IMG/VR virus record: IMGVR_UViG_3300044796_000657
Span: 186,001-250,000 of that record
Source: a virus
Length of the DNA stretch: 64,000 nt
Strand: one strand, 5' to 3'
The notes below the pieces were generated by a model. That model did no database searches. It had not been told where the DNA came from and worked only from the letters and a program-made list of their open reading frames with translations. Shown piece by piece: positions 55,156-57,667 of this stretch (the first letter of the stretch is position 1; each line of letters starts with the position of its first letter). The translations under genes and the position numbers were made by a program.

Positions 55156-55644
55156 TTATTTATCGGACATCATGCCGGAACCTGCCCCGTATTCATTCAC
55201 TTTTTTTTTAGCAGTAAAATCAGCCAATTGTTTTTTCGCAAATTCTACAACATCACTAACATGATTACACGCAGCAATTGCTGTAGGGGAATTTCTTTTT
55301 TTAGCAGCTTCTTTTTGTATTTTTTGTAATTCCTGTTTAGAAGTTTCAACTTTCTTTTTAGCTTCTTCAAATTTCTTTTGCTGGAACTCTGCTTCTTTTT
55401 TCTTCATTTCGTCTGGCGTTAACTGAATTTCATTAACGACATAGAAACCTTCACGGGGATATTTGGCCGGTGAATAATAGCCATCATGCCTAATGTTTTG
55501 CAAAGAACAAACCTTAATGTTCCTGTCTTCCAATTTGGCATTCTTGCGGGCATTAATGTACCCCTGACTGTAAGCCTCTGCTTCAGCATAAAAAACAAAA
55601 GGCCCACCCAAATAAACGTATCGTAATTGCTTTGGCACGATCAT
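55156..55644 (-). CDS. Unknown protein with coiled coil, 162 aa
   Basis: N-terminal globular part (LRYVYLGGPFVFYAEAEAYS) with Tyr-rich content, then a Lys/Glu/Gln-rich coiled coil (KKKEAEFQQKKFEEAKKKVE). Start at 55644 with AGAGAG upstream. It is the next gene after the structured RNA region. No family recognised. Confidence 0.5.
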   Translation of the reverse strand: MIVPKQLRYVYLGGPFVFYAEAEAYSQGYINARKNAKLEDRNIKVCSLQNIRHDGYYSPAKYPREGFYVVNEIQLTPDEMKKKEAEFQQKKFEEAKKKVETSKQELQKIQKEAAKKRNSPTAIAACNHVSDVVEFAKKQLADFTAKKKVNEYGAGSGMMSDK

Positions 55645-55659
55645 TCTCTCTGGGTGGAC

Positions 55660-55874
55660 ATTAAAAAAAATCTCGTTTATGGTATTTCACCACGACCGGC
55701 GTTGACACTTAACTCTATCTAACCCAGACAGACTACACAGATAATAACCCATTGCTGTGAGGCCGATAGAGAAGTATCCGGTTTACTCATAGCCCACTCA
55801 TCTCTAATGATGAGCTAACGAGACCATCATCCACTATCCGTTCCGATAACCGGCAAGAGTCGTGGATGAAAATT
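55660..55874 (-). other. Non-coding region with several hairpins
   Basis: No coding frame is supported. Stems seen: CTCTATC (55713-55719) with GATAGAG (55765-55771), enclosing CACAG (55736-55740) with CTGTG (55755-55759), and a hairpin CTCATC/GATGAG (55797-55814). It continues the structured region that begins next to the TROVE gene. The transcribed strand is not proven; minus would match the TROVE operon. Confidence 0.45.
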
Positions 55875-55949
55875 TCACGAAAACGGCGAAAGGTTAATGT
55901 GAGGGTAACATTTAGCAGATGTACTCACATCGAGATCCGTAATTCGTGA
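55875..55949 (-). ncRNA. Nested hairpin in candidate Y-like RNA locus
   Basis: Stacked stems close in order: TCACGAA/TTCGTGA (55875-55881 with 55943-55949), ACGG/CCGT, ATGTGAG/CTCACAT (55897-55903 with 55924-55930) and ACAT/ATGT with a seven-base loop. An internal loop carries GGCGAAAGG on the plus strand, similar to the conserved GNCGAA element reported for bacterial Y RNAs. The pairing is symmetrical, so the strand must be found by expression data. The minus strand is preferred for operon continuity. Confidence 0.45.
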
Positions 55950-55978
55950 TTCAAAAAGGGTTCAAAGCCCTTCGTGAC

Positions 55979-56043
55979 TGAATGATGGAATTGAACCATC
56001 CTATCTTGTGGGTATAAACCACTGACGCCCCCGTGGCAATTCA
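55979..56043 (-). ncRNA. tRNA-like cloverleaf, candidate Y-RNA module
   Basis: Read on the minus strand from 56043: 5-bp acceptor-like stem TGAAT/ATTCA, a 3-bp D-like stem GCC/GGC, anticodon-like stem GTGG/CCAC with 7-base loop TTTATAC, a short variable region, then T-arm GATGG TTCAATT CCATC with a canonical TTCRANY loop that abuts the acceptor stem as in tRNA. The acceptor is two pairs short of a normal tRNA and D-arm is small, so it is not a standard tRNA. It lies 11 bases past the TROVE stop. Bacterial YrlA RNAs carry such tRNA mimics next to Ro60 genes. Confidence 0.5.
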
Positions 56044-56053
56044 TACCCATATA

Positions 56054-57667
56054 TTACTCTTCATCACCTTCATCTTCAATAGAAGATTTTCGCAGGTGTT
56101 TACCGTCTAAATCAATCTTCACAATCTCGCCCACAACATGGTCGGCATCCATATTGCCATCAACGAATTGCTTAACCAACTTGAAGACGTTGTCACTAAA
56201 CCCGCCAAGGTTCAGAACATCCTTCATTTCCTGTACTTGCGTAGTGGCGTACGGTGCTACGTCGATACAAACCAACTTCGCCTTCGGATTACGCTGCTTC
56301 CAACGCTTCCATTCGGCTTGGAATTGACTCTCACCCTTCAATCTCTTACCGTACCGATCCGTATTCAACGATTCACACCAAGATTGATTGTCCGATACGC
56401 AGATCAGCAAATCGCCAACCCTGTTCGCATCGTTCAACAACTTAAGTGGCGCCCAACAAGCCGTACCACCATCCGCAATCTTACCGATTGCCGACGCATT
56501 CGCCATCACAGATTGCTCCGGATCGACATTGAATGGTACAACATGCTTTTGGAAGAACATCATTTCAGCGTTCGGATTGTTTCTCTTGAAACAAGACGCA
56601 ATCAGCGCAGCCACATCCACACAACGAGTTACCGTTGAAGCCGATCCACGACCGCCCGTCACTGGGTACGTCATGGACTTGGAAACATCGGTAAAGACGT
56701 ACGCAGGAACGCTATCCTTGTAATGCGTCTCAAACGACGGAATGTTGCGAGTAGCAATCTCCATCGCCCGTTCCAAACCATCCCGCAACTCGACAGGCAC
56801 ACCAACGGTATTTTGGTACGCCGTCATAATCTGATACGGAAATACGGAAGCCTTTTTGATCGACACAGGATCAGCCAAGCGGTTTGCAAGCAATTCAACC
56901 ATCCCCGGCACGTTAAACACACCTTGTCGTTGAAGAGTTGCCAGATTACGGAGCAACCAGAACCAGCTCGCCTTTTGAGCGATTTCGGCCCATTGATCGG
57001 TGCCTAACTTTTTGGCAGTATACATACGGAAATCCGTCTTCGGCATTTCCTTAGTTTCGCCCTTCTTCCACGCTTCGTAAACCTTAACCGATTCCGGCAA
57101 CGCATCATGGTTAAATGGTCGGTCAACCATCATACCATAAAGGGCGGAACGAGTCTTATCCAATGGGCGTGGGTGAATGTTCTTCAAGATCGTCTTGAGA
57201 GAAGGCGTACCGACGCTCTGTTGCCAGATTTCCGTAGGCGTACGGCTATTCAACCAATTAACCATTAACTCTTTTGGAACGGTTCCAAAAGACTTACGAC
57301 CGGTCTTGCCAGATCGAATGATTTGGTAGAAATTGCGGAACATCGTGCCATCGTTAATGACACGTACGAAAGTCTTACGAAGCAGCTTCGTTTCCTTGCG
57401 TGCAGCTAATACAGCGCATAACAAGGCCGGAACATCCTTCATAAAGTACAATTCACGGCTGAACACGGCACACTGCGCCACGAATTCAGGCTCCACAATC
57501 ATTGCGGCATTTTGAATTTGATCTAGCTGTTTCTTGGCACTCACGTAAAGCGTGTTGCCGAGACATGAAGTCGTGCTGAGTAAAGCAAGGGTTTGCTTGG
57601 GCGTTAATTGATACGCTACACCACCAGCCTCATTGAAAGAATCCAAAGAACTAAATAACTTATTCAT
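56054..57667 (-). CDS. TROVE-domain protein, Ro60/Rsr homologue
   Basis: 537 aa. The N-terminal ~330 residues are helical repeat sequence typical of TROVE (NTLYVSAKKQLDQIQNAAM, REDLYFMKDVPALLCAVLA-like start). The C-terminal von Willebrand A-like domain has the MIDAS DVSKSM near residue 335-340 plus GGTACWAP. Ro60 is a ring that binds misfolded RNAs and Y RNAs and, in bacteria, teams with PNPase. Start follows AAGGAAAAATTTAA. The tRNA-like fold lies directly downstream. An RNA-surveillance protein in a phage is unusual. Confidence 0.9.
   Translation of the reverse strand: MNKLFSSLDSFNEAGGVAYQLTPKQTLALLSTTSCLGNTLYVSAKKQLDQIQNAAMIVEPEFVAQCAVFSRELYFMKDVPALLCAVLAARKETKLLRKTFVRVINDGTMFRNFYQIIRSGKTGRKSFGTVPKELMVNWLNSRTPTEIWQQSVGTPSLKTILKNIHPRPLDKTRSALYGMMVDRPFNHDALPESVKVYEAWKKGETKEMPKTDFRMYTAKKLGTDQWAEIAQKASWFWLLRNLATLQRQGVFNVPGMVELLANRLADPVSIKKASVFPYQIMTAYQNTVGVPVELRDGLERAMEIATRNIPSFETHYKDSVPAYVFTDVSKSMTYPVTGGRGSASTVTRCVDVAALIASCFKRNNPNAEMMFFQKHVVPFNVDPEQSVMANASAIGKIADGGTACWAPLKLLNDANRVGDLLICVSDNQSWCESLNTDRYGKRLKGESQFQAEWKRWKQRNPKAKLVCIDVAPYATTQVQEMKDVLNLGGFSDNVFKLVKQFVDGNMDADHVVGEIVKIDLDGKHLRKSSIEDEGDEE

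Follow-up and report, generated by a model that had tools for sequence, protein, structure and literature searches.

The stretch behind the Ro60 gene of a jumbo phage is best explained as being transcribed on the Ro60 strand and as holding a divergent Y RNA, a reading to which we assign a probability of roughly 0.8. Comparison at the level of sequence and predicted fold supports the assignment of one minus-strand hairpin (55949-55875) to the short Y-RNA-like hairpins that accompany phage Ro60 genes. Our analysis covered positions 186001-250000 of a 430-kb IMG/VR virus record; this 64-kb stretch is referred to as the window, and coordinates are those of the window unless another sequence is named.

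The Ro60 gene and the hairpin behind it

The Ro60 gene product matches the Pfam domains vWA_Ro60 (E = 1.4e-14) and TROVE (E = 7e-7), and its nearest solved structure is Rsr of D. radiodurans (2nvo, E = 1.4e-12). Between its stop codon and the next gene lie 409 nt in which no open reading frame of 50 aa or more was found. The features discussed below are as follows, with their basis in brackets.

56054-57667, minus strand: Ro60 (Rsr) gene, 537 aa, with TROVE and Ro60 vWA domains (Pfam)
55645-56053, minus strand: gene-free stretch of 409 nt between the Ro60 stop codon and the next gene (ORF list; fold z)
56010-56049, minus strand: hairpin of 14 bp immediately after the Ro60 stop codon, competing with the long-range closing helix (fold)
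55984-56000, minus strand: tRNA-type T arm GAUGG-UUCAAUU-CCAUC, a perfect motif (motif search)
55951-55977, minus strand: hairpin UCACGAAGGG/CCCUUUUUGA between the T arm and the Y hairpin (mean pairing probability 0.93)
55875-55949, minus strand: Y RNA hairpin of predicted Ro60-binding type (fold; matches of models R1 and R3; alignment A5)
55885-55893, plus strand: GGCGAAAGG, complement of CCUUUCGCC in the 3' strand of the minus-strand Y hairpin (sequence; model scores)
55827-55869, minus strand: hairpin UCAUCCAC/GUGGAUGA (pairing probability 0.98)
55780-55825, minus strand: hairpin CUCGUUAGCUCAUCAUU/GAUGAGUGGGCUAUGAG (pairing probability 0.91)
55704-55778, minus strand: long hairpin GAUACUU-CUCUAUC/GAUAGAG-AAGUGUC with inner stems (pairing probability 0.92-0.95)
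55681-55702 (3' half) and 56025-56047 (5' half), minus strand: possible closing helix of 5+9+5 bp, 19 bp in all (fold)
55663-55670, minus strand: eight consecutive U downstream of the closing helix, a possible but atypical 3' end (sequence; not scored as a terminator)
55156-55644, minus strand: next gene downstream of the 409-nt stretch (ORF list)

The nested hairpin described by the first-pass annotation lies exactly at 55875-55949. Its stacked stems are 55875-55881/55943-55949 (7 bp) and 55883-55886/55937-55940 (4 bp), which together form an interrupted lower stem (7+4 bp), followed by the upper stems 55896-55903/55924-55931 (7-8 bp) and 55908-55911/55919-55922 (4 bp). Folding gave it z-scores of -3.4 (minus strand) and -2.7 (plus strand). 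On the minus strand, the internal loop carries AUCUC on its 5' side (55936-55932) and AACCUUUCG on its 3' side (55895-55887), while UACAU (55923-55919) stands at the top of the 8-bp upper stem and opens the apical part. The hairpin begins 105 nt downstream of the Ro60 stop codon, and both are on the minus strand. The further stems that had been proposed down to 55713 were also seen, extending to 55704-55713.

Database searches with existing models returned little from this region. No Rfam family matched the stretch; YrlA (RF02553) gave no match there at E up to 10 and none over its cut-off in the phage, and the window RNA did not reach the gathering score of YrlB (RF02565). Within the 64-kb window no real tRNA or tmRNA gene was found. 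A blastn comparison with the Ro60 loci described below yielded nothing for the window stretch apart from a short match to locus L059, no DNA-level homologue of the stretch behind Ro60 was found in phages, and searches of IMG/VR with single proteins (Ro60 and a 162-aa neighbour) recovered no close relative. Since no close homologue was found, the base pairs of the window RNA itself are beyond covariation testing. Neither a promoter nor a clear terminator was found for an RNA behind Ro60.

Y-RNA-like hairpins at phage Ro60 loci

A Ro60 protein profile, built from the proteins of the window, of Mx1, of a wastewater enterobacterial fragment and of a huge phage, retrieved 80 Ro60 loci from IMG/VR. 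The enterobacterial fragment L004, in which Rfam recognises YrlB and YrlA beside Ro60, served as the yardstick for the phage loci. Numerous tRNAs stand beside the phage Ro60 genes, together with non-tRNA modules of a common plan: a lower stem, RAUGC, an upper stem with UACAU at its end, and a returning 3' strand in which UUG precedes the lower stem. Of the occurrences of the pattern RATGC-N4-13-TACA no more than 1.2 kb from Ro60, 67 are on the Ro60 strand and 4 on the opposite one, the phage Y family having itself been gathered partly by the RATGC/TACA pattern. Thirty short modules, with the window left out, were aligned (alignment A2) and made into model R1. The pairs of A2 are formed in 75.9% of cells, compared with 52.4% in shuffled alignments, and covariation reaches 0.641 against 0.212 after shuffling and 0.14-0.26 (maximum 0.261) when the partners are slid. 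Across 73 loci R1 returned 65 matches at E<1, all but two of them on the Ro60 strand (63/65), among them the E. coli-type YrlB of L004 (34.9 bits) and members whose 5' loops depart from RAUGC; on 52 aligned matches covariation was 0.680, against 0.217 when shuffled.

Of 20 whole genomes of Ro60-bearing phages, 19 contain Y-model matches at E ≤ 0.01 (4 of these 20 having supplied sequences to the model), some of them tens of kilobases from Ro60. In two phages, G001 and G018, the matches lie at least 20 kb from the Ro60 gene; hence Y RNAs need not adjoin Ro60. In loci L061 (4539-5715) and L034 (4715-6850), Ro60 is directly followed by an array of some nine or more Y-RNA-like modules, of which some have a T arm and a D arm and others lack them. 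Two phages have tmRNA genes within about 1.2 kb of Ro60 (L054 1869-2252 and L087 4859-5255).

The hallmarks of the short phage Y hairpins are a lower stem, an asymmetric loop with a RAUGC-type element on its 5' side and a ..CUUG-type strand on its 3' side, an 8-bp upper stem, and UACAU. The window hairpin has the lower stem, an asymmetric loop of about 5 nt and 8-9 nt on its two sides, and the 8-bp upper stem, and it conforms to the UACA column that is invariant in alignment A5. Its loop sequences differ from the usual ones: GAUCUC in the 5' loop, with the RAUGC core changed to AUCUC, and CUUUCG before the 3' lower stem, where the family typically has RAUGC and UUG. The 5' loop is variable in other members also (GAAUA, GACUG, GAUGU).

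The best R1 match in the 64 kb is this hairpin (55931-55889, minus strand, 16.1 bits). Model R3, which was rebuilt with a second copy from the same phage and more relatives, again with the window left out, matches 55944-55879 on the minus strand with 19.8 bits over the full model (1-68). It is the only R3 match at E ≤ 10 in the 64 kb; its E-values, which are rough and moderate, are 0.007 in the window and 0.047 in the genome, with 5e-5 obtained in 501 nt. Over the whole 430-kb phage R3 finds just two matches, the window hairpin and the second Y RNA, the latter a member of the R3 training set. As controls, eight jumbo phages were picked, of which three proved to have TROVE matches; in the five without (1.78 Mb) the best match was 17.0 bits for R1 and 15.6 bits for R3. 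One R1 match of 20.4 bits lies in apparent coding sequence of phage G, for which a weak TROVE match was recorded, so that R1 matches of 16-20 bits are unconvincing by score alone. Agrobacterium phage Atu_ph07 and Caulobacter phage CcrColossus have TROVE proteins, yet the Y-RNA model finds nothing in them; their Ro60 partners may be of another type.

The second Y RNA of the phage lies outside the window.

G000:C1:387420-387495 (L102 7420-7495), plus strand: second Y RNA (R1; fold)

R1 matches it at 387424-387491 with 17.4 bits, and it sits directly behind a tRNA-Pro gene in the phage tRNA cluster, approximately 145 kb from Ro60. The two copies fold almost alike, with nearly identical dot-bracket strings and different stem sequences: both have internal loops of 5 nt and 8-9 nt, an upper stem of 8-9 bp and an apical stem of 4 bp with a 7-nt loop. 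The 5' loop of the second copy reads GAAUUUC. A general search by Y-fold descriptor, which required the lower stem to be uninterrupted, picked up the second copy and missed the window copy, because the lower stem of the latter is interrupted. Comparison with phage Ro60 loci supports the initial proposal of a Y-RNA-like structured RNA adjoining Ro60.

Two further structures were noted elsewhere in this phage. A gene at G000:C1:383418-383486 on the plus strand (L102 3418-3486) looks like a tRNA-Ala (UGC) whose D arm is reduced to a 4-bp stem and a 4-nt loop; neither ARAGORN nor Rfam picked it up, and the phage tRNAs listed include no other tRNA-Ala. At G000:C1:423480-423620 (L104 ~1480-1620), a stretch of about 140 nt is structured, with AAGUAGGUAUCCG/CGGAUGCUACUU as its closing pair; it contains a T-arm motif and was not called as a tRNA.

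Alternative readings of the stretch

The first-pass annotation had taken GGCGAAAGG on the plus strand for a GNCGAA-type Y RNA element. The plus strand does fold, with z-scores of -3.28 over 394 nt and -2.73 for the hairpin, but UACAU and the loop elements lie on the minus strand, the Y RNAs of the relatives sit on the Ro60 strand, and the model scores are 3.0-3.5 bits on the plus strand (3.5 with R3) against 16.1-19.8 bits on the minus strand. The element was therefore assigned to the wrong strand, and a Y RNA on the plus strand, which we rejected as a candidate, is scarcely credible. Another reading is that the hairpins arose by chance, or are of the ordinary 3'-UTR kind, protecting the Ro60 mRNA or terminating it but not binding Ro60. 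The density of pairing had been put far above that of neighbouring DNA, and this holds for the stretch as a whole, since 394 nt of it give z-scores of -4.16 (minus) and -3.28 (plus), ranking second and fourth among 202 strand-windows of equal length from part of the window; in 120-nt windows the stretch rises only moderately above background. Folding energy alone is thus weak evidence, as the 120-nt windows hardly stand out, and other 394-nt windows score similarly. Such an origin is nonetheless improbable: sequence and structure fit a Ro60-associated family, in the expected place and on the expected strand, above the background of the 1.78-Mb control, a second copy of the fold exists in the same phage, and a U-tract is absent behind the Y hairpin.

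The divergent Y RNA on the minus strand is compatible with a larger structure, in which 55681-56047 would fold as a single large RNA of about 370 nt: its paired ends would close it, the Y hairpin would be one branch out of seven, and the whole would act as a scaffold for Ro60 and other modules. A multi-module RNA of about 350 nt had been suggested at the outset, and the 19-bp closing helix predicted on the minus strand agrees with it, as do the minus-strand z-score of -4.16, second of 202 windows, the pairing probability of 0.65-0.97 for the closing helix, and the high probability of every branch. The fold with this helix is, however, just 4.4 kcal/mol better than the alternative with the local 14-bp hairpin, other phages have tandem, separately closed Y RNAs of 60-160 nt, and a homologue that would allow covariation of the large RNA to be assessed was not found. 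We regard the scaffold as rather doubtful, and the fuller model of an end-closed phage RNA of about 370 nt that combines the Y hairpin as an internal branch with a T-arm module and the other stems as somewhat less likely again. Bacterial YrlA RNAs have been described as 90-150 nt long (PMC8394870), a size that a Ro60 scaffold of about 370 nt, if true, would far exceed.

The T arm at 55984-56000, the single match to GGTTCRANTCC in the 64-kb window, precedes the Y hairpin by 35 nt on that hairpin's strand; it is perhaps a tRNA-like module in reduced form, perhaps the remnant of a tRNA. With the surrounding hairpin it could be what is left of a tRNA from a former array around Ro60, or such a tRNA with its D arm reduced, and so be unrelated to the Y RNA. 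In many relatives Ro60 lies within tRNA arrays, a tRNA model weakly matches 55979-56043 (14.1 bits, against a cut-off of 29), and a very small D arm is seen in at least one further tRNA-like gene of the phage, that at L102 3418-3486. The acceptor pairing, by contrast, amounts to just 5 bp, a normal D arm is absent, and the segment falls under every tRNA cut-off; YrlA-type RNAs in L051, L057, L059 and L061 likewise give a T-arm module beside short Y hairpins. Inspection of the minus strand by eye revealed no convincing D arm or permuted acceptor stem that would complete a YrlA-type domain. On balance, an origin from a tRNA unrelated to the Y RNA is possible, although we hold it only tentatively.

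Relation to known Y RNAs and putative role

Y RNAs beside phage Ro60 genes are already known, and the window RNA is a divergent further example. A 2014 study by Chen and colleagues reportedly lists likely Y RNAs close to Ro60 for many bacteria and phages. The T arm of YrlA-type RNAs, like their D arm, is enclosed in the Y stem. The window resembles YrlA (RF02553) in having a canonical T arm on the same strand as its Y hairpin, but here the T arm stands outside the Y stem, before the Y hairpin, and a D arm was not found. Like YrlB (RF02565), the window RNA is a short hairpin adjoining the Ro60 gene on the Ro60 strand, with the same loop architecture; unlike YrlB, it is not recognised by the Rfam model, has AUCUC in place of (A)AUGC and has an interrupted lower stem. 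The Y RNA arrays of the IMG/VR phages L059, L061 and L034 answer to the same model and lie on the Ro60 strand, L059 2574-2640 being the closest relative in sequence and sharing the 15-mer CGAUGUGAGUACAUC with the window; in those arrays the RAUGC core is retained and there are often several complete modules, whereas the window has one recognisable module. The likeness to vertebrate and D. radiodurans Y RNAs is one of architecture, namely a lower stem with an asymmetric loop, which in those RNAs is the Ro60 site (PMC4726728). YrlA-kind Y RNAs have been reported from phages (PMC7765460, which cites Sim and Wolin 2018), and a review states that a small subset of jumbo phages has a TROVE protein, which works in cells with a tRNA-like partner (PMC7824862).

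In published work, bacterial Ro60 (Rsr) binds the basal stem of Y RNA; the Y RNA tethers this protein to PNPase, and the resulting complex degrades structured RNA (PMC8394870, PMC8058203). The RNA repair operon of Salmonella includes Ro60 and Y RNAs along with RtcB (PMC7790460). An RtcB homologue is encoded at 416418-417515 in the phage, which also has more than 30 tRNAs. Given these, the Ro60 gene, the two Y RNAs and the published work, control of phage Ro60 in the decay or repair of structured RNA is, by analogy, the likely role of the phage Y RNA. The RNA would be made within, or processed from, the Ro60 transcript, and the phage Ro60 would grip it by its lower stem and asymmetric loop. Once bound, it might, as in bacterial Ro60-Y RNA complexes, gate entry to the Ro60 ring or connect the protein with a nuclease, for example host PNPase. 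The T arm upstream of the hairpin may offer a tRNA-mimicking contact, though a full tRNA-like domain was not found, and the complex of Ro60 and Y RNA would serve the decay or repair of structured RNA, perhaps tRNA, during infection.

Ro60-Y RNA particles are known chiefly from animals and a few bacteria. Divergent Y RNAs escape the standard RNA databases, and the models built here supply concrete RNAs for binding and infection assays.
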